Positions 7,236 to 25,203 of a stretch of 40,656 nucleotides of DNA are shown here, in pieces. Position numbers and translations under genes: made by a program. This stretch comes from Nitrospinaceae bacterium (GTDB taxonomy: Bacteria > Nitrospinota > Nitrospinia > Nitrospinales > VA-1): NCBI GenBank assembly GCA_020343535.1, contig CP070799.1:2115856-2156511 (forward strand), in the 5' to 3' direction. The notes beneath the pieces were generated by a model. That model was not told the DNA's origin, did not search any database, and worked only from the letters and a program-made list of their open reading frames with translations. Each line of letters begins with the position of its first letter. Within the stretch, counting starts at the first letter, position 1.

Positions 7236-7463
7236 CTGTTCCGGTAAAATCATCCGCGAAGCAGTCCTTGCGCTTCAGGGTGCCGACCCTGTTTATAATG
7301 AGGTTCCCCGGACCCTGCCGCCCCAAGGGGCCGCCAGCCTCTGCGGCGGCCGACCGGGAGGCCCGGAGCGGGCTTTCGGCAGCGATATGCGAGGTTTCCA
7401 CACTCCTTGTGGGAATTTTTACCTATCATACCACTTGCGGTCCAGGAAGGGGGGGTGGACCCT

Positions 7464-7748
7464 TTAAGCCTCGAACTTTTTTCGTCGTCTTAGGATCTGC
7501 GATTGCCCGGCGTGGGCCACCAGCTTCAGCTCGAAGGGATAGGTCCTGCAAATGTTGACCAACGCCTGCACCGCCAGATCCTTGGCGTCGGTTTCATCCT
7601 CAGCGTCGCATTTCATCTCCCAGGCCGAACTCACGGTGGGGATTTTCTCCAGCCCGTGTTCCTCCATGCGCAGGAAAATTTCCTTCTGGTCTGCCTCCTG
7701 AATGTCGTGAAACTCCGCGATCAACAGCACATTGAATGCCTGACTCAA
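7464..7748 (-). CDS. Small hypothetical protein
   Basis: This 94-residue protein starts at a TTG preceded by GGAAGGAGG at good spacing, which makes the start convincing although it is not ATG. The sequence runs AFNVLLIAEFHDIQEADQ, then helical acidic stretches, and ends in a basic segment (QILRRRKKFEA). The alternating strands and helices could form a ferredoxin-like fold, but I do not recognise the family. It follows the BASS transporter gene by 88 bases on the same strand and may be cotranscribed with it. Confidence 0.7.
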   Translation of the reverse strand: MSQAFNVLLIAEFHDIQEADQKEIFLRMEEHGLEKIPTVSSAWEMKCDAEDETDAKDLAVQALVNICRTYPFELKLVAHAGQSQILRRRKKFEA

Positions 7749-7836
7749 AATCGTCCTCCTTCCCTGTGAGAGTTGCTATGGCGTATATTTTACATTTTTT
7801 CATTCCGGCCCCGGCGGGAAAAAACGCGGGGCGTTT

Positions 7837-8841
7837 TCAGGCCCGCCCACGCACCCGGGCGGTTTTTGCTTGATGAATCTGGCGGTGCGCCTGCAGGCGG
7901 CAGGCCCCCGCCGCCAGGCTGCCGAGAATGCAGTGGGTGAGAGCGGAAATCGCGCCAGGCACCGTGGCCAGTGCAAAGTTCGGAAAATTACTCCGGGCGA
8001 GTTCCGTGGCCAGGCCTGAATTCTGCATGCCCACCTCGATGGAAATGGTCTGACAGTCCTTTTCCTTGAAGCCCAAGAGCCGCGAAAGAACGTAGCCGAG
8101 CAGAAAGCCCAGCGCATGCAGGGTCACGATGGCCGAAACTAGGGGCGCCCCTGTGGCGATGATTTCGTCTTTCTTCGTGGCGAGAATGAAGTCGACGATA
8201 AAAACGATCGCCAGCACCGCGAAAAACGGCGTGTAGGCATTGACCCGTTTCACCCAGACATGAAAATAATGGTTCAGGAACACCCCAATGAGCACCGGCA
8301 ACACCACCACCTGAAAAGTCTTCAACAGCAGGCCGAGCGTGTTGACTTCGATGCGGGTTCCGATCAGGTCCTCGGCAAGCGATTCCACAAGCCACGTGGT
8401 GAGCACGGGTGTGACGACGACGGCGAGCAGGGTGGACACGGTGGTGAGGCTCACCGAGAGTGCGACGTTGGTGCGGGCGATGAAACACACCAGGTTGGAG
8501 GCCGTGCCGCCGGGGCAAGAGGCGACGAGGACGATGCCTATCACATAATCCATCGGCAGGTCGAAGGCCCGCGCCAGGGAAAAACCAAGGACCGGCATGA
8601 TGACGTATTGCAGCCCCACCCCGGCCAGAATGGTTCCGGGGATTTTAAAGACGCGGGTGAAATCCTGCCAGCCCAGGGTGAGGCCCATGCTGAGCATGAT
8701 GACGCCGAGAAAAAATGGAATCCAATCCGGTTGAAACCAGAGTGCCGTCGCCGGTTGCCATAAAGCGAGGCCCGCGCCGAGAACCACCCAGAGCGGAAAC
8801 AGATTGGCGAGTATGAGGAAGTATTTCTGCGGGGGACTCAC
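7837..8841 (-). CDS. Bile acid:sodium symporter (BASS) family transporter
   Basis: This 334-residue polytopic protein has about ten hydrophobic segments. It carries the BASS signatures CPGGTASNLVCFIARTN near the middle and SIEVGMQNSGLATELA in the second half, which form the substrate- and sodium-binding crossover. BASS proteins import organic anions such as pantoate, pyruvate or sulfated compounds; the substrate here is unknown. I place the start at GTG 8841, eight bases after the methyltransferase stop, because upstream in-frame sequence is Ser/Arg-rich antisense-like text inside that gene. The C-terminal tail is basic. Confidence 0.88.
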   Translation of the reverse strand: MSPPQKYFLILANLFPLWVVLGAGLALWQPATALWFQPDWIPFFLGVIMLSMGLTLGWQDFTRVFKIPGTILAGVGLQYVIMPVLGFSLARAFDLPMDYVIGIVLVASCPGGTASNLVCFIARTNVALSVSLTTVSTLLAVVVTPVLTTWLVESLAEDLIGTRIEVNTLGLLLKTFQVVVLPVLIGVFLNHYFHVWVKRVNAYTPFFAVLAIVFIVDFILATKKDEIIATGAPLVSAIVTLHALGFLLGYVLSRLLGFKEKDCQTISIEVGMQNSGLATELARSNFPNFALATVPGAISALTHCILGSLAAGACRLQAHRQIHQAKTARVRGRA

Positions 8842-8848
8842 CGTCCAC

Positions 8849-9499
8849 TCAAGGCTTTTGCGCGATGATGCTGGAATAGGCCTCGCGTCCCGAATCGTAG
8901 GCCTGGTAGCGGATGATCTTGAAGTCCTTGAACGTTTCGAGGAGTTCGTTGGTTCCGAGCGCCCACTTGCCGCTGATGTTGCCGTATTTGGCGACATCGT
9001 CCTGATTGTAGGTTTCGATCAGCACCATGCCGCCGGGCTTGAGGGCGTCCTTGAATTGCAGGAACAGGTCCCGCTGCATGTAGTAGGTGCAGAGGATCAC
9101 GTCGTAGGCGTTTTTTTCCAGCGTGTGGTTTTCGAGATCCACCACCCGGGTTTCGATCTTTACATTGTGCCGGGCGGCGAGCTGATGCGCCTTCTGCAGG
9201 CCCTTCGCGGAAATATCTAGGCCGATCACGTCGAACCCGTGCCGGGCGAGAAACACCCCGTTGCGGCCCTCACCCATAGCCACATCCAGGGCGCGGCCCC
9301 TAGGCAGAAGGTGCACGTTGCGCTCCAGGAAGGTGATCGGTTTTTCGCCGAAGAGGTAGACCTCGGTATCGTACTTGCTGTCCCAGCGTTCCTTGTCGCG
9401 CGGCTTTCCTTCCACGGGCTGGGCCAGCGGCAAGGCGCCGAGGGCGAGAACGAGCAGGGGAAGCAAGCCTCGAGCAATTTTTGCGGCAAGCGGAAACAT
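8849..9499 (-). CDS. Class I SAM-dependent methyltransferase with N-terminal signal-like segment
   Basis: The 216-residue product has a TehB/UbiE-like Rossmann core: ALDVAMGEGRNGVFLARHG (motif I), VIGLDIS, then YDVILCTYYMQRDLF and LKPGGMVLIET. Residues 1-30 (KIARGLLPLLVLALGALPLA) look like a Sec signal or membrane anchor. That is unusual, because S-adenosylmethionine is cytoplasmic. An internal GTG near residue 29 could give a soluble form but lacks a ribosome site. A clear promoter lies upstream, and the BASS gene follows with a 7-base gap. Target unknown. Confidence 0.85.
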   Translation of the reverse strand: MFPLAAKIARGLLPLLVLALGALPLAQPVEGKPRDKERWDSKYDTEVYLFGEKPITFLERNVHLLPRGRALDVAMGEGRNGVFLARHGFDVIGLDISAKGLQKAHQLAARHNVKIETRVVDLENHTLEKNAYDVILCTYYMQRDLFLQFKDALKPGGMVLIETYNQDDVAKYGNISGKWALGTNELLETFKDFKIIRYQAYDSGREAYSSIIAQKP

Positions 9500-9534
9500 A
9501 GCGGCTCGCGATCGATGGGGTCGTCAATGGGCTC

Positions 9535-9562
9535 ATTCTACTGCCTCCCCCTCACCTGTCAA
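9535..9562 (-). promoter_or_regulatory. Sigma70 promoter for methyltransferase-BASS operon
   Basis: On the minus strand a perfect TTGACA (9562-9557) and TAGAAT (9540-9535) are 16 bases apart, with a leader of about 30 bases to the ATG at 9499. It stands back-to-back with a plus-strand promoter at 9576-9604. Confidence 0.65.
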
Positions 9563-9575
9563 GCCGATTTTCCCG

Positions 9576-9604
9576 TTTACGGGTTGGCGGGCGGTGTGTA
9601 CAAT
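9576..9604 (+). promoter_or_regulatory. Probable sigma70 promoter for the DUF1566 gene
   Basis: TTTACG (9576-9581) and TACAAT (9599-9604) are 17 bases apart. The leader to the ATG at 9664 is about 53 bases and holds an AAGGAG ribosome site. Confidence 0.45.
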
Positions 9605-9663
9605 AAAACCCATTCGCACAAGGGTTTCGAGAAACGAAACGACTGCGCGCAAGGAGCCAGCCC

Positions 9664-10197
9664 ATGCGATTTGAAATCAAGCTATTGTTTTGGATGTTTT
9701 TTGCGTCCCTCCTGACCGCTCCGCTGGCCGGGGCGGTTTTCGCCGAGGACCCGGCAAAGCCCGTCGCCTATTCCGCCGACCAGCGTTTTGGCGACCTGGG
9801 CGACGGCACGATCCTCGACAAGGAAACGGGCCTGATGTGGATGGCCAGGGATTACTGGCAGACCGAAAAAAAATGGATCAACTGGTACACCGCGAGCGAA
9901 TACGTCCGGCGGGTGAACAACAAGAAATTCGCCGGTCACGAGGATTGGCGGCTGCCGACGCCGGAAGAGGCCAAAACCCTCTACGACCGGCGCAAGCGCA
10001 ACGTCGATAAAGACGGTGACAAGATGTATATCGACCCGCTGTTCCCGTCCGGCGCGGGCTGGAGCACTTGGACGAACGAGGACAGAAAGAATAAGGCCGT
10101 CGTCGTTTCCTTTAAAGACGAGGGCGGGCAGGAGTATCAGGATAAAATCAGCGGCGTCGACGCTTTTCTTCGACTGGTGCGCGGTCCTGTGTCCTGA
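9664..10197 (+). CDS. Exported DUF1566 (Lcl C-terminal) domain protein
   Basis: The 177-residue product has a signal peptide ending near GAVFAED and then the DUF1566 pattern: FGDLGDGTILDKETGLMW, many tryptophans, GHEDWRLPTPEEAKTLYD, WTNED and a closing LRLVRG. This lectin-like fold occurs in secreted or surface proteins of environmental bacteria, and its ligand is generally unknown. An AAGGAG ribosome site precedes the ATG. It begins the plus-strand run that leads into the cytochrome cluster, with its own probable promoter. Confidence 0.88.
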   Translation: MRFEIKLLFWMFFASLLTAPLAGAVFAEDPAKPVAYSADQRFGDLGDGTILDKETGLMWMARDYWQTEKKWINWYTASEYVRRVNNKKFAGHEDWRLPTPEEAKTLYDRRKRNVDKDGDKMYIDPLFPSGAGWSTWTNEDRKNKAVVVSFKDEGGQEYQDKISGVDAFLRLVRGPVS

Positions 10198-10333
10198 GCC
10201 GAAGACCGGCTCAACCCGCGGAAATTTCCTCCTTGAGCCGCCGCCGGCCTTGGCGATGCGGTTTGCAAGCGGCTGGGTGTGTCCGGGATGACGAGAGCGT
10301 TCAAACGGGAGTTGCCCGATCGGATTGTGCTTT

Positions 10334-10762
10334 ATGAAAAAACGATTTCCTGGCGCGGGCGCGCTGCCCGTTTTCATCGTCTGGATCGCGGGCTCGGCGT
10401 TCCACCTCAACGTGTACGAGCCCCGCGTGCCGCAGGAGATTCTGGAATTGGTTCAGGAAAATGAGAACCCCTTTCCGGCCACCCCCGAACGCATCGAGGA
10501 GGGGAGGCGGATTTTTTACGGCAAGGGGCTCTGCGTTACCTGCCATGGCAAGGACGGCAAGGGGATCGATAAAATTCCCGGCCACGCGCCGCGCGACTTC
10601 ACGGATGCCCGGTGGCAGGAGTTGCGCACCGATGGCGAGCTCATGTGGGTGCTGAGAAACGGCAGCCCCGGAACCAGCATGCCGGTGCGGGTGGGCAAGG
10701 TGCTCAGCGAGGAAGAGGGCTGGAGCGTTATCCACTTCCTGCGGACGTTTGCCGGGAAATGA
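10334..10762 (+). CDS. Membrane-anchored or exported monohaem c-type cytochrome
   Basis: The 142-residue product has a basic start and a hydrophobic segment (ALPVFIVWIAGSAFHL) that acts as signal or anchor. The haem site CVTCH is at about 68-72, and the axial methionine probably lies in GSPGTSMP near residue 118. The segment WVLRNGSPGT resembles the WIIKNGSPGT of the three paralogues at 13.5-15.1 kb. This one lacks their extra N-terminal Cys-Pro and FTC cysteines. An ATG at 10334 or a TTG at 10325 could start it, and neither has a clear ribosome site. Role: periplasmic electron transfer. Confidence 0.87.
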   Translation: MKKRFPGAGALPVFIVWIAGSAFHLNVYEPRVPQEILELVQENENPFPATPERIEEGRRIFYGKGLCVTCHGKDGKGIDKIPGHAPRDFTDARWQELRTDGELMWVLRNGSPGTSMPVRVGKVLSEEEGWSVIHFLRTFAGK

Positions 10763-10867
10763 AGGTTTTCCCCGGCCCGGGGCCGGGTTACGGTGCGGGA
10801 GCGTCCCCGGCGGGCCTGGCGGGGGCGTTCGGCAGGGTCGCGGTGTAACTGTTATAGGGGTTGAGCG

Positions 10868-12271
10868 ATGTTTTTCAAGCAATATTATCTCGGTTGTCTG
10901 GCACACGCCTCCTACCTCATCGGCGACGAGAGCACCCAAACGGCGGTGGTGGTGGACCCGCAACGCGATATCGAGCAGTACCTGAACGATGCCGAAAAAA
11001 ACGACCTGCGGATTCGGCACGTGATCCTCACTCATTTTCACGCCGATTTCGTTGCTGGCCATCTGGAGCTGCGCGACCGCGCGGGGGCCGAAATTCACCT
11101 CGGAGCCCGCGCCGAAGCCGAGTACGCCTTCAAGCCCCAGGCCGACGGCAGCCGCCTCGATCTGGGCCGCGTGTCTCTCGAATTCCTGGAAACCCCCGGC
11201 CATACGCCCGAGGGAATCTCCATCCTTGTTTTCGACCACGGCACCTTTCCCGACAAGCCGCTGATGGTGCTCACCGGCGACACCCTGTTCATCGGCGATG
11301 TCGGCCGGCCCGACCTGATGGCCTCGGAGGGTATTTCCGAGACCGAGCTCGCCGGCCTGCTTTACGATTCCCTGCGCAACAAGCTGATGCCTCTTCCCGA
11401 TGCTACGAAAGTGTACCCCGCCCACGGTGCGGGCTCGTTGTGCGGCCGGAATTTGAGCGACGAGACCGTCTCCACCATCGGCGAGCAGAAGGCCCTGAAC
11501 TATGCGCTCGGCCCCATGACGCGCGAGGCGTTCATCGCCCTGGTGACGGAGAACCAGCCGCAGGCCCCGGAATATTTTTCATACGACGCACGTCTTAATA
11601 AGAAAGAGAGGCCGCGGCTCGAGGAATCCCTGCAATCGGGGACGCCGCTCTCCCTGGACGGATTTCTTGAGGGGCAAGCCGCCGGCGCACAGGTGCTGGA
11701 CACTCGGCCGCAGGTCGAGTTTAGCGCCGCGCATCTGCCCGGGGCGGTGCACGTGGGCCTCGGTGGCAAGTTCGCCACCTGGGCCGGCATCGTCCTCGAC
11801 CCGCAGGTGCCCATCCTCCTCGTTGCCGAACCGGGGAGCGAATACGAGGCCCAGATGCGGCTCGGGCGCATCGGCTTCGACCGGGTGGCGGGCTATCTCG
11901 ACGGCGGCATGCAGGCGGCAAACCACAGGCCCAACCTTCTCGAACCGGTGATTTCCTGGACGGGCGGCGAGCTTTTGGAAGCGCTTTCGAAGGACCCGCC
12001 GCCGCACCTGCTCGATGTGCGCGCCGAGAGCGAATTCCGCGCGGGGCACATTAAAAAAGCCATTCACGTGCCGCTCAATAACTTGGTCCGCCGGTTGGGT
12101 GAAATCCCCAAAGGCGGCACGGTGGTGGTCCACTGTGCCGGAGGCTACCGCTCCACCATCGCCTGCAGCCTGTTGCAAAAACACGGTTACCGTAACGTGG
12201 TCAATCTGCTCGGCGGCATCGCCGCCTTTGAAAATCTGGGGTCCGAGGTTGAAGCGGTGCTCGCGCGCTGA
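10868..12271 (+). CDS. Metallo-beta-lactamase-fold hydrolase fused to two rhodanese domains
   Basis: The 467-residue protein has an N-terminal MBL domain of the persulfide dioxygenase/glyoxalase II type (LTHFHADFVAGH near 57-68, ETPGHTPEG, LTGDTLFIGDVGRPDL). Two rhodanese domains follow. The first, about residues 265-350, has LVAEPG where the catalytic loop should be and no cysteine, so it is probably inactive. The second, about 365-465, keeps the active-site loop VVHCAGGYRS. Related proteins oxidise glutathione persulfide or transfer sulfane sulfur. No signal peptide is present, so it should be cytoplasmic. It lies between two cytochrome genes, hinting at sulfur metabolism. Confidence 0.92.
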   Translation: MFFKQYYLGCLAHASYLIGDESTQTAVVVDPQRDIEQYLNDAEKNDLRIRHVILTHFHADFVAGHLELRDRAGAEIHLGARAEAEYAFKPQADGSRLDLGRVSLEFLETPGHTPEGISILVFDHGTFPDKPLMVLTGDTLFIGDVGRPDLMASEGISETELAGLLYDSLRNKLMPLPDATKVYPAHGAGSLCGRNLSDETVSTIGEQKALNYALGPMTREAFIALVTENQPQAPEYFSYDARLNKKERPRLEESLQSGTPLSLDGFLEGQAAGAQVLDTRPQVEFSAAHLPGAVHVGLGGKFATWAGIVLDPQVPILLVAEPGSEYEAQMRLGRIGFDRVAGYLDGGMQAANHRPNLLEPVISWTGGELLEALSKDPPPHLLDVRAESEFRAGHIKKAIHVPLNNLVRRLGEIPKGGTVVVHCAGGYRSTIACSLLQKHGYRNVVNLLGGIAAFENLGSEVEAVLAR

Positions 12272-12297
12272 CCGTTCGCCTTACTTAATAATATAAT
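12268..12297 (+). promoter_or_regulatory. Sigma70 promoter for the barrel/cytochrome cluster
   Basis: CTGACC (12268-12273, overlapping the upstream stop codon) and a consensus TATAAT (12292-12297) are 18 bases apart. The ATG at 12330 follows a GAGAGAGGGGG ribosome site. Confidence 0.55.
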
Positions 12298-12329
12298 TGC
12301 GGCAACATTTTTGACGAGAGAGGGGGTGC

Positions 12330-13406
12330 ATGAAAGGAAAAAATTCAGGGGCATTATTGTTGTTGGCGGTATTCCTGGCGGCGGAGCTGTGGGCCGTTTC
12401 CGCCGAAGCGATCCCTGCGTTTGCCAGGCGGTATGAGATCAGCTGCACCGTCTGTCACGTGGCTTTTCCCAAGCTCAACAGTTTCGGTGAATCGTTCGCC
12501 GGCAACGGTTACCAGTTCCCCGATGAGGATTTGAACGAACACGCCGTCGATACGGGTGACGACAAGCTGCTGCTTAAGGAGCTTCCCTTCGCCGTGCGGG
12601 CGGATTCGTTCTTCCGCGCCCGCAAAGACACCGGGGTCCATGCCGACCTCGAATCGCCGTTCGGTATCAAGCTCCTGTCGAGCGCTCCCATCGCCAACAA
12701 CATCAGCTATTACTTTTATTTCATTTTCAACGAGCGCGGCAGCACCGAGACCGGCGTGGAGGACGCCTTCCTGTACTTCAACGACGCCTACAAAGGGATG
12801 GATCTCGATTTGCGCATCGGCCAGTTTCAGGTGTCGGACATTCTGTTTCCGCGCGAGCAGCGGCTGACGTTTCAGGATTACACGATCTATACCACACGTG
12901 TGAGCACCAAAAATTTTGATTCCGACAACTTCTAGAATTTTTACGGCAAGGTGTCCCTCGCCCGGGGCGACCAGAGTGTCGGCTTTTACGATTACTACGG
13001 CTAGGAAGAGAAATCCGCCGGGATCGATAACGAATTTTACCGCATCGGTCCGGATTTCAACCTCACCCTGCTGGGAGACTGGAACCTGTGGGGCAACTTC
13101 CTGTATGGTGAAGACGACAACCCGACGTTCTCTCCCGGCCCGGTGGAGGAAATCAGCCACTGGGGCGGGTTTATCGGGCTCACCAAACCCCTTGGCGAGG
13201 ACTGGGTGCTGTCGCTCCTGTACAACCGGGTTAATGTCGACGGCATCGATACCCTCGATGCCCATACCATGACGGGCAACTTGACCTATTACATCATGCG
13301 AAACTTTAAAGTGATGGCCGAGTTCACGGGCGATTTGTTGGGCGAAAGCGCCGCCCACCCGGAGAAGGAGCACACAGGCGTCATCGGCGTGGTGCTGGCG
13401 TTCTAG
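12330..13406 (+). pseudogene. CxxCH-bearing outer-membrane barrel protein gene with two in-frame TAG codons
   Basis: The reading frame spans 359 codons, but TAG interrupts it at codon 202 (12933-12935) and codon 225 (13002-13004). The final stop, also TAG, is at 13404. The product has a signal peptide, then IPAFARRYEISCTVCHVAFP (haem-type motif at 39-43), then an amphipathic beta-strand-rich region ending in VVLAF, the terminal Phe typical of outer-membrane barrels. The frame stays coherent and barrel-like through both TAGs. A ribosome site at 12316-12327 and a promoter look intact. I recognise the pattern from environmental Gram-negatives but know no accepted name. Recent decay, readthrough or sequence error are all possible. 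Confidence 0.8.
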
Positions 13407-13480
13407 GGCGTGGGCCGGAAAGAGGGGCCAGGGTATTTCCTGGAATGGAAAACGCTTATTCATTCAGAAAGGAATCATCC

Positions 13481-14038
13481 ATGTCTTTATTTCGATGGGA
13501 AAGCCGGACGCGTTGGGGCGGTTTAACCGTGGCGGCCATGGCCGCATCCCTTATCGGGGCGATGAGCGGGATAGCCAGCGCGGAGCTGCCTGGTGGGGCG
13601 GACGAGCCCAGCGTCGTTCAGGCGTCGCACCGCGGCGAGGAGCACGAGGAACTGATCTTGGAAGGGGCGTCGGGGGCCTGCCCGCAGGCGCGCAAAACTC
13701 CCGAGGCGCCGCAGGAGTTCCTGCTAATGAAGAATCCGTTGGCGGAAACCGAGGAAAACATTCAGGCGGGGGAGACCTTGTTCAAGGTGGACGCCCGCCC
13801 CACGCCATGCCTGGTGTGTCACGGTTTTCAGGGCAACGGCATGGGCATCATTCACGAGCAGCTTAAGCCCAAACCACGAAATTTCACCTGTTACTACACG
13901 ATGAGCGGGCTTCCCGACGGCCAGCTTTTCTGGATCATAAAGAACGGCTCGCCGGGAACGCGCATGCCGGCGTTTGGTGTGCTCAGCGACGAACAGGTGT
14001 GGCAGCTCATTCTTTATATCAGGCAATTTGCCAAATAA
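13481..14038 (+). CDS. Periplasmic monohaem cytochrome c, tandem paralogue 1
   Basis: The ATG at 13481 has AAAGGA upstream and opens a 185-residue protein with a signal peptide ending near IASAE. It has Cys67 in GACPQARKT, the haem site CLVCH at 110-114, Cys137 in PRNFTCYYTM, and a probable axial Met162 in NGSPGTRMP. The same four landmarks recur in the next two genes, so the three form a tandem family. The two extra cysteines could form a disulfide or bind another group. Periplasmic electron transfer next to a haem-motif barrel gene is the likely role; the partner is unknown. Confidence 0.9.
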   Translation: MSLFRWESRTRWGGLTVAAMAASLIGAMSGIASAELPGGADEPSVVQASHRGEEHEELILEGASGACPQARKTPEAPQEFLLMKNPLAETEENIQAGETLFKVDARPTPCLVCHGFQGNGMGIIHEQLKPKPRNFTCYYTMSGLPDGQLFWIIKNGSPGTRMPAFGVLSDEQVWQLILYIRQFAK

Positions 14039-14062
14039 GTCCTAATTCCCCAAGAGAAGACC

Positions 14063-14602
14063 ATGGCCATGCAAAATCATCTTCTGAACACCCGCCTGCT
14101 GGGGCCGGTGCTGGCCGCCGGAATTTTTGCCGCCGCGATCGCCGGCGACGCCTTCGCGGGACCGGGAATGTATCACGGCCTGCGTCACCGCCTGCATTCG
14201 CACGACCTGCACCACGGTGAGGGCTTCATGGGCAGCGGGGTCTGTCCACAGACCCGCGCCACCGCCCAGGCCCCGGACGATATCCGCCGGTTGAACAACC
14301 CCCTGGAGCCAACGCCGGAAAACCTGACCGCGGGCGCGGCCCTGTTCGCCACCGACGTGCAACCCACCGCCTGCAAAGTGTGCCATGGTGTCACGGGCAA
14401 TGGCCTTGGCATGATGGCACCTGGCCTTAACCCGCCACCACGCAATTTCACCTGCAAGGAAACCATGGGCGAAATTCCCGATGGCCAGTTGTTCTGGATC
14501 ATCAAGAACGGTTCGCCGGGCACCGGCATGCCGCCTTACGGAGGGCTTTCCGACCTTCAGGTCTGGCAGATCATCCTGCACCTGCGTCAATTCGCACAGT
14601 GA
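14063..14602 (+). CDS. Periplasmic monohaem cytochrome c, tandem paralogue 2
   Basis: The 179-residue product has a signal peptide ending near DAFAG, followed by a histidine-rich stretch (about residues 38-52, seven His) absent from paralogue 1. It then has Cys61 in VCPQTRAT, haem motif CKVCH at 104-108, Cys131 in RNFTCKETM and probable axial Met156. The shared block PDGQLFWIIKNGSPGT is nearly identical to paralogue 1. It lies 24 bases downstream of paralogue 1 and is probably cotranscribed. The His-rich part could bind metal, which is inference only. Confidence 0.9.
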   Translation: MAMQNHLLNTRLLGPVLAAGIFAAAIAGDAFAGPGMYHGLRHRLHSHDLHHGEGFMGSGVCPQTRATAQAPDDIRRLNNPLEPTPENLTAGAALFATDVQPTACKVCHGVTGNGLGMMAPGLNPPPRNFTCKETMGEIPDGQLFWIIKNGSPGTGMPPYGGLSDLQVWQIILHLRQFAQ

Positions 14603-14617
14603 GCCGGGGGGCGGCCG

Positions 14618-15097
14618 ATGCGGGCGGTGAGGCGGGCCGCGGCGTTGGCGCTGGCGCTTTTCATCGCCGCCGCCGGTGATGCCGTCCCTGGCAAAAATCC
14701 ATACGGCGGGGCGCAGATCGCCCGCGGTATCTGCCCGGAAGCACGCAAGACCGCCCGCGCGCGACCTGAAGCGTAAAAATCCCCTGCCTGCCACCCGTGA
14801 ACACATCGAGAAGGGACGGCGGCTCTACGTCGAGGAAGCGCGGCCCACGCCGTGCCGCTTGTGCCACGGTGCATATGGCCGGGGCGATGGCCGGCTCTCG
14901 CAAGGCCTCGCCCCGCCACCGAGAAACTTCACCTGCCGGGACACCATGCACAAGCTCGGGGACGGGCAGTGGTTCTGGATCATCAAGAACGGTTCGCCGG
15001 GCACCGGCATGCCGGCGCACAAGCGCACCTTGAAGGATGAGGACATCTGGCGGCTCATCCTCTACATCCGGCGATTCGCAATGCCGGAGAAGAACCT

Positions 15098-15101
<4 letters not shown>
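14618..15101 (+). pseudogene. Third tandem cytochrome c paralogue, frameshifted
   Basis: The ATG at 14618 opens a signal peptide (AALALALFIAAAGDAVPG) and reaches GICPEARKTARA, matching the Cys-Pro segment of its neighbours. The frame then runs to TAA at 14774-14776. The conserved rest (KRKNPLPATREHIEKG, CRLCH, RNFTCRDTM, WIIKNGSPGTGMP) continues in the +1 frame to TAG at 15099-15101. The break lies in the repeat CGCGCGCG near 14754-14762, where the paralogues have an Ala-Pro pair and two more residues. A short deletion or a base-calling error in the CG repeat would explain it. Its end overlaps the convergent ettA stop by 4 bases. Confidence 0.8.
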
Positions 15102-16771
<1,670 letters not shown>

Positions 16772-17588: not shown

Positions 17589-17702
17589 CACTCTCTTTGG
17601 CAGGATGAGTCCACCTCGCTATTCCATACTTCACGATTGTTAATCCGTTGCTCCGCCCCCTTCGGGGGGAGCCGATATTTCCCCGAACTTGAGGAACTAA
17701 AC

Positions 17703-18272
17703 ATGGTCAGTTTCGTCAGCGGCAACAACCTTCGCGCCGGTTACGTTATCAAATACAACAACCAGTTGTACAGGGTGATGACCGCCGAGCACCGCACACC
17801 GGGCAACAAGCGGGCGTTCATGCAAGTCAAACTGCGCAATCTGAAGGATGGCACGCAAACCGAAATCAAATTCCGCGCCGACGAGGAAATCGAGCGCGCG
17901 GAAATGGAACAAGTGGAGATGGAATACCTTTATAGCGACCCCTCGGGCTACTGTTTCATGAACTGCGTCACCTACGACCAGCTTTTTTTGGAGGAGAGCC
18001 TGCTCGCCGAAGCGAAAAAATACATTTTGCCCAACACCCGGGTGCAGGTCGAATTCTGCGACGACAAGGCCATCGGCATCAGCCTGCCGGAAACCGTCGA
18101 TTTGAAAGTGGAAGACACCGAACCGCAGCTTCGCGGCGCCACCGCCTCCGGCTCTGGCAAGCCCGCCACCCTGGAAACCGGTTTGGTGGTGACGGTGCCG
18201 CAGTTCATCAACATCGGCGATGTGGTGCGCGTCTCCACCTCCTCCGGGGCCTACCTGGAGCGTGCCAAATAA
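17703..18272 (+). CDS. efp: Elongation factor P
   Basis: EF-P relieves ribosome stalling at polyproline. The 189-residue protein has all three beta-barrel domains, with the C-terminal signature ATLETGLVVTVPQFINIGD. The tip loop of domain I reads TPGNKRAF, so the position of the lysine modified in E. coli (P-G-K34) holds Asn35 here, followed by Lys36. No lysylation or rhamnosylation genes (epmA/epmB/earP) are in the window. GAGGA lies seven bases before the ATG; a longer in-frame start upstream lacks family similarity. Confidence 0.96.
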   Translation: MVSFVSGNNLRAGYVIKYNNQLYRVMTAEHRTPGNKRAFMQVKLRNLKDGTQTEIKFRADEEIERAEMEQVEMEYLYSDPSGYCFMNCVTYDQLFLEESLLAEAKKYILPNTRVQVEFCDDKAIGISLPETVDLKVEDTEPQLRGATASGSGKPATLETGLVVTVPQFINIGDVVRVSTSSGAYLERAK

Positions 18273-18652: not shown

Positions 18653-19414
18653 GTGGAAAAAGTCATCGTCGATTCACCCTTGAGCCTTGTGGACCTTGTT
18701 TTGCAGTCCACCCCGGTCGCCAAGGGGGTACTGGTTTTGCTGCTGTTATTTTCCATCGTTTCCTGGGCCATCATCCTCAGCAAGTTTTTCGTGTTCAAGA
18801 TGGCCAAGAAGGAGGACGGTAAATTCCTGTCCAATTTTTCCAAGTCGGAAAACCTGACCCACATCTATAACTTTTCCCGCGAACTCAGGTACAGCCCCGT
18901 GGCGCGGGTGTTCCTGACGGGCTACCGAGAACTCTACCTGTTTCAGGATATGGCGAAAAAGGAAAGGGACCGCCGGGGAGAGCCGCCCTCGCACAGCGGT
19001 GAGCCTTTGACCGCAAAGGATATCAAGGGCATCAGTCTCGTGCTCAATAAAGCCATCAACCGCGAAATCACCCGCCTATCCGCCCGTCTGGATTTTCTCG
19101 CCACCACCGGCAGCACCACCCCCTTCATCGGGCTGTTCGGCACGGTGTGGGGCATCATGCATTCGTTCCGCTCCATCGGCATGGCGGGGTCGGCCAGCAT
19201 CGGCGGCGTGGCCCCGGGTATCGCCGAGGCCCTCATCGCCACCGCGGCGGGCCTTGTCGCCGCCATTCCCGCGGTTATCTTCTACAATTACCTGAGCGAT
19301 AAAATCCGGGTGTTCACCAGCGTCATGGACGATTTTCTGCACGACTATGTCTACATGGTGGAAAAGAATTTTATGCGCGAAACTGAGCCGGCCAAGGCCC
19401 TGGAAAGGTCTTGA
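18653..19414 (+). CDS. tolQ: TolQ/ExbB-family proton channel subunit
   Basis: TolQ forms the inner-membrane proton channel that energises TolA with TolR. The 253-residue product has a first transmembrane helix at about 22-48 and a cytoplasmic loop. Two further helices lie around 150-175 and 190-215, with the family segment GLFGTVWGIMHSF and GIAEALIATAAGLVAAIPAV. The start is GTG preceded by TGAGGT. It opens the tolQRAB gene row, followed by tolR after 27 bases. The loop near residues 98-117 is unusually charged. Confidence 0.92.
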   Translation: MEKVIVDSPLSLVDLVLQSTPVAKGVLVLLLLFSIVSWAIILSKFFVFKMAKKEDGKFLSNFSKSENLTHIYNFSRELRYSPVARVFLTGYRELYLFQDMAKKERDRRGEPPSHSGEPLTAKDIKGISLVLNKAINREITRLSARLDFLATTGSTTPFIGLFGTVWGIMHSFRSIGMAGSASIGGVAPGIAEALIATAAGLVAAIPAVIFYNYLSDKIRVFTSVMDDFLHDYVYMVEKNFMRETEPAKALERS

Positions 19415-19441: not shown

Positions 19442-19849
19442 ATGCCCGCCGTAAACCGAAGACGAGCCATGATGTCGGAAATCAACGTCACGCCCTTCGT
19501 GGACGTGATGCTGGTTCTACTCGTGATCTTCATGATCACGGCGCCCCTGATGCAGCATGGGGTGGATGTACAGTTGCCCAAGGAATCCATCGCGCCCACC
19601 GATGTCAAGGACATCCCCCGCGTCACCCTGAAGAGCAATAAGAAAATATTCTGGAACAAGGAAGAGATGTCCACCCTCGTCGAGCTGATGCGCAACGTCG
19701 GCGGCTATCTCGAGGAATACAAGGACGGCGGCGTTTATCTCAAGGCGGACAAGACCCTGGACTATGGTTTCGTCATGCATATCATGGCGACGCTCAAGCG
19801 GGCTGGTGTCCAGAGCATCGGCATGGTGACCGATCCACAGAACCAATGA
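19442..19849 (+). CDS. tolR: TolR/ExbD-family protein
   Basis: This 135-residue bitopic protein has the TolR opening EINVTPFVDVMLVLLVIFMI, with the channel Asp in FVDVM, and a periplasmic ExbD domain ending in VQSIGMVTDP. It partners TolQ in coupling proton flow to the TolA energiser. GAGGG precedes the ATG at 19442. Its TGA overlaps the tolA ATG (ATGA), which argues for translational coupling. Confidence 0.93.
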   Translation: MPAVNRRRAMMSEINVTPFVDVMLVLLVIFMITAPLMQHGVDVQLPKESIAPTDVKDIPRVTLKSNKKIFWNKEEMSTLVELMRNVGGYLEEYKDGGVYLKADKTLDYGFVMHIMATLKRAGVQSIGMVTDPQNQ

Positions 19850-21133: not shown

Positions 21134-22474
21134 ATGACTAAAAAAATAACAAGCCTGATTTTGTTCTGTGTTCTTTCCTTCCCCGCGGTAGCCCTCGCCG
21201 CCGGTTCCAACGTGCGCATTGAGCTTGAGCGCGAAACCCGCGAGAAGGTCAAGATCGCCGTGACGCCGTTCGTGCTCGCCCCAAACTATGAGGACCCGGC
21301 CGGGCTGGGCGGTGAAAGCCACAAGATCCTGGAAAACGATCTCACCTTGTCGGAGCTTTTCGACGTGGTTCCGGTTTCCGCATACGACCGACTGCTCGCC
21401 TCCGAGCAGGGCAAAAAAACCGTCGACTACACCGGCTGGGGGCAGATCGGCGTTCAGTGGCTGCTCAAAACCGAGTACAAGGTCAACCCGCTGGACAAGT
21501 CTTTCAACGTCACCTTCCGTATCTACGAGACGGCGACCGAGAAATTTCTCATCGGCAAGCGATACACCACCACGGAAAAATTCCTGCGCAAGATCATCCA
21601 CCGTTTCGCCGATGAAGTGGTGCTGCAGCTCACCGGCAAGCGCGGCGTCTCCGAAACCCGCATCGCCTACCTTTCGCGGGTGGGGCAGAACAAGGAAATC
21701 TTCGTTGTCGATTTTGACGGCGAAAATCTCAGGAAGCTGACCGAGGACAACACGGTGATCCTCACCCCGGCCTGGTCGCCCGATGGTTCGTGGATCGTTT
21801 ACACGTCGTTCGCGGATCACAATCCCGACCTGGTGATGGTGCGCTCCTCGGGCAAGCTCCGGCGCCGCACCCTGCTCAAGCTGCCCGGGCTCAACGCCGC
21901 GCCGTCCTGGGGGCCCGGCGGCAATCGCATCGCCCTGGTGCTGAGCAAGGATCAGAACTCCGAGATCTATGTGCTTGAAAAGAATTACGGACTAAAGCGC
22001 ATGACCCGGCACTTCAACATCGACACCTCCCCCACCTGGTCCCCCGATGGCAAGAAAATTGCCTTCACCTCGGACCGCTCCGGAACCGGGTCGCCGCAGA
22101 TCTACGTCCTGGATGTGGATAAGGGCGATTCCGGCGGCGTCAAACGCATTTCCTTCGGATCGACCTACAACGACAACCCGGCCTGGTCGCCCGATGGCGA
22201 CAAGATCGCCTACACCTCGCGGGTCGGCCGCCGCTTTCAGATCATGCTCTACGATTTGAACACCCGCAAGACGGAGCAGTTCACCGTCGAGTCCGGCAGC
22301 AACGAGCAGCCGGCCTGGTCGCCGGACGGCCGGTTCATCGTTTACCGCAACCGCAACAATGGCCAGGAACAAATCCTCATCAAGAGCCTTCACGGGGGCA
22401 AGCCACGGCAATTGTCCTTCGCGGCCGGCGGTGGATATAGCCCGGCCTGGTCGCCGTACACCAAAAAACCTTAA
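21134..22474 (+). CDS. tolB: Tol-Pal system beta-propeller protein TolB
   Basis: The 446-residue protein has a Sec signal ending near VALAAG, an N-terminal alpha/beta domain (about 25-165) and a six-bladed propeller. The propeller is made of repeats with the WD40-like motif PAWSPDG/PTWSPDG, seen near residues 215, 300, 350 and 393. TolB sits in the periplasm and binds Pal. It starts one base after the tolA stop, as part of the tol operon. The length agrees with family members (about 430). Confidence 0.95.
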   Translation: MTKKITSLILFCVLSFPAVALAAGSNVRIELERETREKVKIAVTPFVLAPNYEDPAGLGGESHKILENDLTLSELFDVVPVSAYDRLLASEQGKKTVDYTGWGQIGVQWLLKTEYKVNPLDKSFNVTFRIYETATEKFLIGKRYTTTEKFLRKIIHRFADEVVLQLTGKRGVSETRIAYLSRVGQNKEIFVVDFDGENLRKLTEDNTVILTPAWSPDGSWIVYTSFADHNPDLVMVRSSGKLRRRTLLKLPGLNAAPSWGPGGNRIALVLSKDQNSEIYVLEKNYGLKRMTRHFNIDTSPTWSPDGKKIAFTSDRSGTGSPQIYVLDVDKGDSGGVKRISFGSTYNDNPAWSPDGDKIAYTSRVGRRFQIMLYDLNTRKTEQFTVESGSNEQPAWSPDGRFIVYRNRNNGQEQILIKSLHGGKPRQLSFAAGGGYSPAWSPYTKKP

Positions 22475-22637: not shown

Positions 22638-22772
22638 TGATGGGTAAACTTGGCACGGTAGTTTTAAGATAACGGTAATAAAATCTGGGTGTTAGAGCAC
22701 ACCGCCACCGCACATCAGATTAAGATGAAAATTGATAAGTCTAGGGGGACAACTTCGATGACGAGGGTACCT

Positions 22773-23555
22773 ATGAAGAAAAAAAATGTCTGGTCCATGA
22801 TTGGAGTGGTTTTGCTGGCGAGCAGTTTGACCGCCGCCTGTTCAAAGAAATTGATGCCGCCTGAGATCGAGGCCGAGGGTACGCTGGAAGAGCCGAGTCC
22901 GCAGGAAGTTGCCTATGCGGACCCGGTGGTTGAAGAGCCTCCAATGGTCGCCGAGGCGCCCGCCGAAGAGCCCATCGAAATCAATCCTTCGGAATTCCTG
23001 ACCGAGGAAGACGTCAACGTTGCCGAGGCGCCCGCTGAAGCCACGCCGATGGGAGAGATCCCCGGCAACGGCTCCGATGGAGCTTTCGGTCTGGACACGT
23101 ACGGCAACCCCGCGGCGGGCAGCGGCGGAGCGGGCACCCTCGCTGAAGGCGCTCCGTCTACCACCCCGAATGCCGGTGACAACCTCCTGGAGGAGGCGCG
23201 GATGTTCAAATTCAAGTCCACCGCTGAACTAAAGGACGTGCACTTCAGGTTCGACAAATACGACCTCGATGAGCAGTCCCGCTCCGTACTGATCCAGAAC
23301 GCCGATTTCCTGAAGCAGAACCCGCTGGTCAAGGTTGAGATTCAGGGGCATTGCGATGAGCGTGGCACCAACAACTATAACCTCGCCCTCGGCCACCGCC
23401 GAGCGGTTTCCACGAAGAAATTTCTGATGGCTCAGGGCATCGACGAGACCCGCCTCAGGGTTATCAGCTATGGCGAGGAAAAGCCCTTCTGCGGCGAGAG
23501 CAACGAAAATTGCTGGTGGAGGAACCGGCGCGCCCATTTCATGGTCGCGAAATAA
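22773..23555 (+). CDS. pal: Peptidoglycan-associated lipoprotein Pal
   Basis: Pal is the outer-membrane lipoprotein that binds peptidoglycan and TolB. The ATG at 22773 (GAGGGT upstream) opens a lipoprotein signal with lipobox LTAAC. An acidic Pro/Glu/Ala-rich linker of about 120 residues follows, with repeats of EAPAEE/EAPAEA. The OmpA-like domain (about residues 150-260) has VHFRFDKYDLDE, EIQGHCDERGTNNYNLALG and a closing RRAHFMV. The linker is longer than in E. coli Pal. A second ATG 15 bases upstream is also possible. It has its own promoter and a terminator behind it. Confidence 0.95.
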   Translation: MKKKNVWSMIGVVLLASSLTAACSKKLMPPEIEAEGTLEEPSPQEVAYADPVVEEPPMVAEAPAEEPIEINPSEFLTEEDVNVAEAPAEATPMGEIPGNGSDGAFGLDTYGNPAAGSGGAGTLAEGAPSTTPNAGDNLLEEARMFKFKSTAELKDVHFRFDKYDLDEQSRSVLIQNADFLKQNPLVKVEIQGHCDERGTNNYNLALGHRRAVSTKKFLMAQGIDETRLRVISYGEEKPFCGESNENCWWRNRRAHFMVAK

Positions 23556-23605
23556 ACCGGAGGGCCTCGTGGGCCTGACTCCACATCCAACGATTTAAAA
23601 TAGAT

Positions 23606-23648
23606 AGACCGCGCCGGGGGGACCCGGTCGCGGTCTGTCTTGTTTTTT
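23606..23648 (+). terminator. Strong intrinsic terminator after pal
   Basis: AGACCGCG (23606-23613) pairs with CGCGGTCT (23629-23636), with an inner 5-base-pair stem beyond a bulge, and the tail is GTCTTG followed by six Ts (23643-23648). It should end the tol-pal transcript just before the coiled-coil gene, whose ribosome site lies at its edge. Confidence 0.75.
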
Positions 23649-23658
23649 AGGGGATTTA

Positions 23659-25203
23659 ATGTATCGGTTTCAACCTCAACCAAAGAGATTTCGGGCCATG
23701 AAAAAATTTCAATACCTTCGATGCGCAGTGATTGCCGCCCTATTGGCGGTGCCCGTCACCAGTTCCGCGGCGGGGCTTTTCGCCAATGACGAGGAAAACT
23801 GGAAAAGAATATTTGGAGAGATCAAAAAAATCAATGCCCGGCTGGTAGCCTTGGAAATGGACAAAATCAAGTCCATGCAATCCACCCAGGAGGACGTGCT
23901 CCGCCAGGTGCAGGAGATGAAAAGCATCGTTCCCGACCTCCGGGGAACCGTCGAGCAGAACCAGGCCGAGATGGTCACCTTCATCAAAGCCACCGACACC
24001 AAGCTCAAGGATCTGGAGTCCCTCCTGAAGTTTGAGGTGGGAACCAACCTGCGGCTGCAGAAGGAAGCCACCGAAAGGCTGCACAGCGACCTGGACGCCA
24101 GCATGGCCGAAAAATTCGACCAGCTCAAGACCCACCTAGCTGGCGATATGGAAAAATTCGCCAACACCAACAAACAGAACTTTCAGGAGATCACCCGCGC
24201 TAACAGCGAATCCCTCGGCAAGGTGGTCGAACAACTGACCTCGCAAAATCAGACGCTGGAGCGTACCAACTCCATCTTCAAGGCCGAGTTGATTCCCGCC
24301 ATCATGAAAGAGAGTGAGACGAGCCGGCAACTGATGTTGACCGAACTCACCAAGGCCAACAAGCAGAACCAGGAGGCCATGCTGACCGGGTTCACCGACG
24401 CGGCGAACAAGAATAAAAAGATGATCGAGGTCCTGCAAAAAGGCTTGCAGGAAGAACAGGAAACCAAGACCCGAATCGGCATGCTCGCACAGATCCTGGA
24501 ACAGGCGAACAATAACGTGGTGCAGACCCAGAACACCATGGTCAAGCTCAAGGACATCCTGACCGGGCAGATGCAGGTGGTGGCCTCGGGCCAGGAGTCG
24601 CTCACGGCGCAGATCGACAATAACGTCAAGAACACCGACCTCATCAACCAGAACCTCATGGTGGCCGATGGTAAAGTGAACAAGCTGGCCGAAGGGCTGC
24701 AGGCGATTCACACCCAGAACACCAACTCCGTAAAGCGGGTTGCCGAAATGAGCCAGGGCATGGCCCAAATGCAGAGTTCCAACCAGCTGGTGGGCGAAAA
24801 GGTCTCCGCGTTGATCGCCACGTCCAAGGAAATGGCGGCGCATTCCACCCACATCGATCAGTCGGTCAAGGCGCTGAACCAATCGATGCAGGGGATCGAG
24901 GGAAATCTCGCCAAAGTGGATCTCGCCAATGAGAAGCTCAGCAAGCTGGTGGAGATTCTAAAGACCATGGCCGCCGGTCAGAGCCGAGTTGACCAGGTCA
25001 TCAGTTCGCAGTCCGATATGAAAAAAGCGCAGCTCGATATCCGCAGTTCCCAGCTTGAAATCAAGCGGGTGCAGATGGAGTTGAAAAAATCGCAGGAAGA
25101 CCTGCTGCGCAAGACCAACGTGGCGCTGGCCAGAACCGACGAACTGAAAAAGACCCTGGAAAAGATCCAGCCGCCCTCAACCGCCAAGGCGCCGGAAAAA
25201 TAA
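23659..25203 (+). CDS. Long exported coiled-coil protein next to Tol-Pal
   Basis: The 514-residue product has a signal peptide ending near VTSSAAG, and from about residue 50 to the end is predicted by eye to be almost entirely helical coiled coil. It is rich in Gln, Asn, Lys, Glu and Met, with no proline for long stretches and recurring QNQ/NK segments. The mature part has no cysteine. AGGGGA before the ATG at 23659 favours that start; an ATG at 23698 would give a shorter signal. It sits right after pal, where cpoB/ybgF usually is, but lacks the TPR repeats of CpoB. Function unknown; a periplasmic spacer or scaffold is inference. Confidence 0.85.
   Translation: MYRFQPQPKRFRAMKKFQYLRCAVIAALLAVPVTSSAAGLFANDEENWKRIFGEIKKINARLVALEMDKIKSMQSTQEDVLRQVQEMKSIVPDLRGTVEQNQAEMVTFIKATDTKLKDLESLLKFEVGTNLRLQKEATERLHSDLDASMAEKFDQLKTHLAGDMEKFANTNKQNFQEITRANSESLGKVVEQLTSQNQTLERTNSIFKAELIPAIMKESETSRQLMLTELTKANKQNQEAMLTGFTDAANKNKKMIEVLQKGLQEEQETKTRIGMLAQILEQANNNVVQTQNTMVKLKDILTGQMQVVASGQESLTAQIDNNVKNTDLINQNLMVADGKVNKLAEGLQAIHTQNTNSVKRVAEMSQGMAQMQSSNQLVGEKVSALIATSKEMAAHSTHIDQSVKALNQSMQGIEGNLAKVDLANEKLSKLVEILKTMAAGQSRVDQVISSQSDMKKAQLDIRSSQLEIKRVQMELKKSQEDLLRKTNVALARTDELKKTLEKIQPPSTAKAPEK

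Follow-up and report, generated by a model that had tools for sequence, protein, structure and literature searches.

Is the long coiled-coil protein that the Nitrospinales, an order of marine nitrite oxidisers and related bacteria, encode directly after pal a form of CpoB, or an unrelated protein that has come to occupy the place of cpoB, and what would it do in the Tol-Pal system? The window analysed here, a stretch of 40,656 nucleotides from a Nitrospinaceae genome, carries such a gene. The initial annotation had described its product as a 514-residue exported protein that is nearly all coiled coil, has no tetratricopeptide repeat (TPR) and lies directly after pal in a tol-pal locus. Domain and family models for tolQ, tolR, tolA, tolB and pal bear out this placement (Table 1), and upstream of tolQ lies what we take to be an EF-P-like gene (17637-18272).

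Table 1. Features of the tol-pal locus in the window and of the coiled-coil protein encoded after pal (window positions; protein residues counted from the ATG at 23698).
Feature	Residues	Position	Strand	Basis or remark
tolQ		18653..19414	+	TIGR02796, 221.8 bits, cut-off 221
tolR		19442..19849	+	TIGR02801, 122.8 bits, narrowly below the 127.3 cut-off; PF02472 above its cut-off
tolA	428 aa	19846..21132	+	PF13103 TonB_2 at the C-terminus and place in the operon
tolB		21134..22474	+	TIGR02800, 369.7 bits, cut-off 343.15
pal		22689..23555	+	TIGR02802, 130.1 bits, cut-off 125.35; ORF as listed, true start may be further in
Terminator-like hairpin and T-run, interval between pal and the coiled-coil gene		23603..23648	+	RNAfold; place kept across the order
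Coiled-coil gene, most likely derived from cpoB	501 aa	23698..25203	+	Other ATG upstream at 23659, absent in the sister species (L047)
Putative Sec-type signal peptide	1-25	23698..23772	+	By reading; cleavage site without lipobox
N-terminal module	27-200	23776..24297	+	Near-constant length: 156-186, mean 173, sd 8, n=38
CpoB-trimerisation-like block	46-95	23833..23982	+	PF16331, sub-threshold: 18.8 bits (cut-off 30.1), E 0.0017
Variable-length rod	200-464	24295..25089	+	96 to 598 residues over 38 sequences
C-terminal module	464-488	25087..25161	+	24 residues in 38/38 sequences; order consensus ALADLRRKANVNISRNDDIKK

The open reading frame 23659-25203 is present in the window, and its first ATG is a possible start; the ATG at 23698 is the likelier one because a Sec-type signal peptide begins there and because the sister-species sequence aligns from that point and has no equivalent of the ATG at 23659. 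With this start the product would have 501 residues rather than 514. The signal peptide of the window protein, as read (MKKFQYLRCAVIAALLAVPVTSSAA, cleaved before G), and those read in its relatives point to export to the periplasm, so that the exported nature of the protein stands and its original length probably does not. The mature protein has a hydrophobic power of 3.83 at period 3.50, as against 0.86 for the 99th percentile of 1000 shuffles, and an AlphaFold monomer model has helices at residues 31-204, 210-397 and 406-490, that is, over most of the length (mean pLDDT 70.4, pTM 0.23). The model supports helicity, not topology, and the description as nearly all coiled coil holds. So does the lack of TPR: TPR family models of Pfam and NCBIfam gave no match in the window protein at E<=1, the 25 Pfam families listed (out of 47) for the 52 members of the family include no TPR model, and the one member that matches PF07926 TPR_MLP1_2 does so to what we take not to be a tetratricopeptide model. 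Besides PF16331, Pfam gave two weaker sub-threshold matches of the window protein to other families. Searches of the PDB found no match by Foldseek and none by sequence at E<=1; the Foldseek result is uninformative, its query being an all-helical monomer model of low pTM.

The protein was found in 54 of 100 genomes, all of them Nitrospinales (54/64 of the order and 28/28 of its good-quality genomes), and in neither the 13 other members of the class nor 23 more distant genomes (0/36 outside the order); the 10 genomes of the order that gave no match have a completeness of 59-86%. A query made of the C-terminal 94 residues again matched 54 genomes, G017 being gained, G040 lost and none added outside the order. 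A search of named genomes run with a set of close relatives returned 23 loci, all from Nitrospina, Nitrospinaceae, Nitrospinae, Nitrospinia or Nitrospinota; as NCBI assigns Nitrospinaceae to Nitrospinales, this points to Nitrospinales as the order concerned. Plasmid records searched with the N-terminal 185 residues gave no match. The gene is single-copy in the window's genome. Wherever the contigs cover it, the gene order in the 54 loci is tolQ-tolR-tolA-tolB-pal-coiled-coil gene: pal was identified directly upstream by BLAST in 47 loci and by reading in L073, where an ORF begins with a Pal-like lipobox, and the remaining six loci stop at a contig edge. The search for homologues and their neighbourhoods that had been proposed for this gene finds the homologues at tol-pal, with pal upstream in 48/48 continuing contigs. 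In total, the coiled-coil gene is a fixed member of the tol-pal locus in Nitrospinales. The 3' neighbour is usually radA, with ispD directly after the coiled-coil gene in six loci (L073, L090, L094, L095, L097 and L098); radA, ispD and peroxiredoxin are presumed names, given to the neighbour genes from their sequences.

The post-pal slot was also read in 11 of the 13 other genomes of the class (G071, which gave no Pal match, and G076, with a weaker Pal match, were left out, and a second Pal copy of G065 at a contig end, L186, was not counted). In family f9 the protein encoded after pal has a lipoprotein-like start, a coiled-coil-like region and TPR (TPR_6, E 6e-14 to 1e-20) in 5/5 loci and is recognisable as CpoB. 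By the terms of the initial annotation, relatives with cpoB in its usual position would speak against the idea of a lineage-specific partner; the presence of such a gene in f9 recasts that idea as a derived cpoB rather than destroying it. In families f8 (two loci), f7 (one) and f6 (one) the post-pal proteins are coiled-coil-like and gave no TPR match at E<=0.01. They have the slot, the TPR-less state and a homologous block in common with the order protein but differ from it in being shorter (184-337 aa) and in that its C-terminal module is unmatched in those genomes. In the two f5 loci, reading found no coiled-coil or TPR gene immediately 3' of pal.

Sequence profiles connect these proteins in two steps. 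The N-terminal profile of the order protein matches the f8 proteins L176 (E 5.6e-10, ungapped over 66 residues; 0.15 for the reversed profile) and L183 (9.6e-5; reversed 0.027). A profile of the f9 CpoB coiled-coil block matches the post-pal proteins f7 L182 (5.7e-12), f8 L183 (4.3e-11), f8 L176 (9.7e-11) and f6 L185 (3.2e-8); with the block reversed, L182 is matched at 5.1 and the other three are not among the best 22 matches listed. The direct step from f9 CpoB or E. coli CpoB to the order protein is not convincing. The f9 block matches order proteins at best at 0.0018 (reversed best 0.036), and the order profile matches f9 L180 at 3e-4 (reversed 0.0055), f7 L182 at 0.0097 (reversed 0.023) and one unrelated ORF at 0.019. 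It gives E. coli CpoB 5.4 bits, and 2.4 bits when reversed. Coiled coils draw chance matches, and PF16331 at E<=0.1 is found in 5/52 members as against 7/52 for the unrelated Apolipoprotein model. At E<=0.01 it has matches in 16 genomes of the order, at the coiled-coil gene in six of these, and the single such match in the window's genome is the coiled-coil gene. TIGR02795 (tol_pal_ybgF) gave no match to the window protein at E<=1, and its best place in the window's genome is elsewhere (61.4 bits, below the 90.1 cut-off).

Descent from CpoB is thus suggested by the two-step profile chain from the order protein through f8 to f9, together with synteny. The order protein resembles the CpoB/YbgF proteins of E. 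coli and f9 in that its gene lies directly after pal and in having an N-terminal coiled coil on an exported protein. In addition, RLVALE (residues 48-53) and LRGTVEQNQ (81-89) in the trimerisation-like block of the window protein parallel RVTQLE, near the start of the coiled coil of E. coli CpoB, and LRGQIQENQ, that is, RhxxhE and LRG-x-[VI]-x-x-NQ at nearly equal spacing. RhxxhE is a motif typical of trimers; it stands at one alignment column in 25/52 members, with 39 such motifs over 23494 residues in all. The order protein differs from CpoB/YbgF in that no TPR was found, in its much longer coiled coil and in its order-specific C-terminal module, and from f9 CpoB also in lacking a lipobox where the f9 proteins start like lipoproteins. 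Most likely, then, the coiled-coil gene is a derived cpoB without TPR, and it is not classed as CpoB proper because TPR was not found. The earlier description of a protein merely placed in the cpoB slot is right about the slot, which is kept, but the protein does not appear unrelated, its N-terminal coiled coil chaining to a TPR-bearing CpoB.

Alternatively, an unrelated coiled-coil protein could have displaced cpoB and act as a tether or spacer independently of Tol-Pal, as Lpp does. Lpp is a periplasmic coiled coil the length of which could relate to envelope spacing. A coiled coil with a signal peptide would suit such a role, no PF16331 match above the cut-off was found in any of the 100 genomes, and the window protein, like 28/51 members not cut by a contig end, ends in lysine. 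We nevertheless regard a displacement of this kind as improbable, given the profile chain with its reversed controls, the strict synteny, the cleavage site without lipobox and a terminal lysine that is not conserved (23/51 members end in another residue); the order protein is also far longer than Lpp. An Lpp-like covalent linkage to peptidoglycan was considered and is not supported by two of these features, the cleavage site and the C-terminus. The window protein has a single cysteine, at residue 9, and one narrow lipobox pattern found a single match among the 52 members, at residues 6-9 of L078, which is too early for a lipobox.

Combining the synteny and profile data with the lengths described below, we suggest, with a probability of roughly 60%, that the order protein is a CpoB without TPR, which it lost or never had, extended into a long coiled-coil rod that lies in the periplasm and is matched in size to TolA and Pal. 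In this scheme, (i) the N-terminal block with its RhxxhE motif would form a trimer, (ii) partners would bind at the two ends of the rod, with the ALADLRRKANVNISRNDDIKK module at the C-terminus as the likely site of docking, perhaps for TolA, Pal or a peptidoglycan synthase, and (iii) the reach required of TolA and Pal would determine how long the rod is.

The anatomy of the protein follows from an alignment of 52 sequences, with module lengths taken from the 38 that were complete enough for the length test. Two end modules of near-constant length flank a rod of variable length (Table 1), and the C-terminal module is the best conserved stretch of the protein. The length test comprised 37 of the 54 loci and the window (n=38). 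Left out were 17 loci in which the gene or tolA is cut by a contig end or was not recovered, or in which tolA is split in two frames (L065 and L085); L100, in which the copy is apparently broken, is among them. Descent was corrected for by phylogenetic contrasts on a tree of TolB, TolQ, TolR and RadA.

The length of the coiled-coil protein follows that of TolA, with a raw rho of 0.88 and a contrast r of 0.93 (n=38), or 0.84 after removal of the five largest contrasts. It also follows the length of mature Pal (0.67 in contrasts, n=37; 0.51 without L064). The signal lies in the rod, which alone gives 0.93 against TolA when residues are counted (0.85 once the longest and the shortest sequence are dropped) and 0.87 in logarithms, and 0.55 against Pal in contrasts, while the length of the N-terminal module is not significantly related to TolA (0.23). 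In contrasts, six controls are unrelated to the rod and not significantly related to the whole protein: TolB -0.11 (n=38), TolQ -0.23 (35), RadA 0.15 (30), IspD 0.27 (34), IF-2 0.14 (34) and an unlinked TPR lipoprotein 0.11 (32), the lengths of the last two being those of stop-to-stop open frames. Without correction for descent, RadA (rho 0.64) and IF-2 (0.49) do correlate with the length of the coiled-coil protein. TamB, which could have served as a positive control for a length that spans the periplasm, was set aside because only 11/39 genomes gave a match. L064 (G048, 7462-16716) has the longest coiled-coil protein (834 aa), TolA (730 aa) and Pal ORF (465 aa) of the set, and L089 (G014, 7475-13214), from a 1.7 Mb genome, encodes the shortest coiled-coil protein of the test (335 aa) together with the shortest TolA (352 aa).

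The length matching to TolA and Pal suggests that the protein is a size-matched part of a two-membrane machine. Together with the invariant place after pal and the restriction to the order, it supports the earlier proposal of a lineage-specific Tol-Pal partner, and the proposal of a periplasmic spacer gains support too, in that differences in length fall mainly in the middle of the protein. More tentatively, and at less than even odds, the Tol-Pal system of the order could have a dedicated length-matched rod, such that TolA, the linker of Pal and the protein descended from CpoB scale together as periplasm width evolves; if so, rod length would be a genomic proxy for envelope spacing. No measurement of periplasm width in these cells was found in the literature searched. 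A real length correlation could also arise if the rod were bound along domain II of TolA, with no constraint from periplasm width. The tighter correlation with TolA than with Pal is in line with this, but the length of Pal co-varies as well, which would not be expected from side-by-side contact with TolA, and we consider this origin rather unlikely. For each residue of the coiled-coil protein TolA gains 0.65 residues (a slope that falls to 0.50 without L064), which with textbook rises fits either an extended rod with an extended TolA or a folded-back rod with a helical TolA. A symmetric antiparallel hairpin was considered as well: helices 1 and 2 of the model are similar in predicted length, but the variation in length lies mainly beyond residue 200.

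A derived CpoB without TPR raises the question of what became of the TPR-dependent function. Excerpts of two papers describe E. coli CpoB as a trimeric coiled coil with TPR (PMC7391070, PMC4458516), and according to those of the review its TPRs bind TolA domain II and PBP1B (PMC7391070). The order protein, having no TPR, could not bind TolA or PBP1B by this route, and the task would be either lost or carried out by an unlinked TPR lipoprotein. A lipoprotein with coiled coil and TPR that is unlinked to tol-pal is matched in 56/64 genomes searched (58 of the order, six of the class), including 31/31 good-quality ones, and 39/58 genomes of the order have a second, weaker TPR match elsewhere. CpoB could have been split in two, the syntenic coiled coil keeping trimerisation and the TolA-side role and the unlinked lipoprotein giving TPR in trans. 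We think this unlikely, since similar unlinked TPR proteins are present in 5/7 genomes searched from relatives in the class, which speaks against a one-for-one replacement of the TPR, and the length of the lipoprotein does not follow that of the coiled-coil protein. The notion that the lipoprotein arose to replace a lost TPR is likewise weakened, as most of these relatives have a TPR-bearing CpoB after pal.

In the window's genome, the unlinked protein is encoded at L101 5701-6645 (G000:C1:1769700-1770644) and is lipoprotein-like, with a short coiled coil and CpoB-like TPR, although this copy is partly masked; relatives are found at L201, L203, L205, L207, L209 and L211. In the six relatives of the order that were read its gene adjoins what we take to be a cysteine-desulfurase-like gene, and in several of them a presumed glycosyltransferase-like gene is close by. 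Another TPR lipoprotein, about 270-310 aa long (L200, L202, L204, L206, L208, L210, L215 and L216), has a WxPP-like stretch in 7/8 copies read and adjoins a presumably DnaJ-like gene in 8/8; a genome search did not find it in the window's genome.

How envelope-spanning machines keep up with periplasm width is an open question. In the excerpts available, a 2025 survey reports that CpoB widely adjoins tol-pal, that TolA and TonB domain II lengths are weakly correlated per species, possibly in connection with periplasm width, and that few periplasm measurements exist against which the link to width could be tested; TPR-less CpoB is not mentioned there, and its main text has no word beginning with "nitrospin" (PMC12204202). 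Titles and the starts of abstracts listed in literature searches on CpoB, Tol-Pal, Nitrospina and periplasm width describe neither the protein nor the length relation. What is new is a protein with near-constant ends and a variable middle, the length of which follows that of TolA and, less tightly, that of Pal, but not those of the six controls. That a third component of the tol-pal locus follows TolA this closely after correction for descent makes the idea of a ruler, or of co-scaling, directly testable. Judging by the distribution of the protein, CpoB may moreover be retained throughout an order in the absence of its TPR domain.

The coiled-coil gene is set apart from pal by a terminator in the order, whereas only 9 bases separate pal and cpoB in E. 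coli. A simple terminator scan of the region was by itself not significant (21 found, 18.8 in shuffles). Across relatives, a script found a hairpin in 46/48 pal-to-gene intervals (shuffles: mean 3.6, maximum 8/48 in 20 rounds) and one that has 12 or more pairs together with a T-run in 44/48 (shuffled maximum 1), and the two intervals that it missed, those of the window and L047, have a bulged hairpin in RNAfold; the terminator noted earlier at this place is thus corroborated. TATAAT occurs in 25/48 intervals, compared with 4.1 expected by shuffling (at most 10 over 300 rounds), and lies immediately 5' of the called stem in 18; the window interval 23596-23648 has TAAAAT in its place. Judged from the placement of TATAAT in the intervals (those of L053, L067, L070 and L071, for example), a promoter of the coiled-coil gene may overlap the terminator. 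Just upstream, an inverted repeat CGATTC...GAATCG is found in several intervals. In two of the three loci of genus g10, L085 and L092, 413 and 641 bases lie between pal and the gene, as against 114-184 elsewhere, and the extra bases come after the hairpin.
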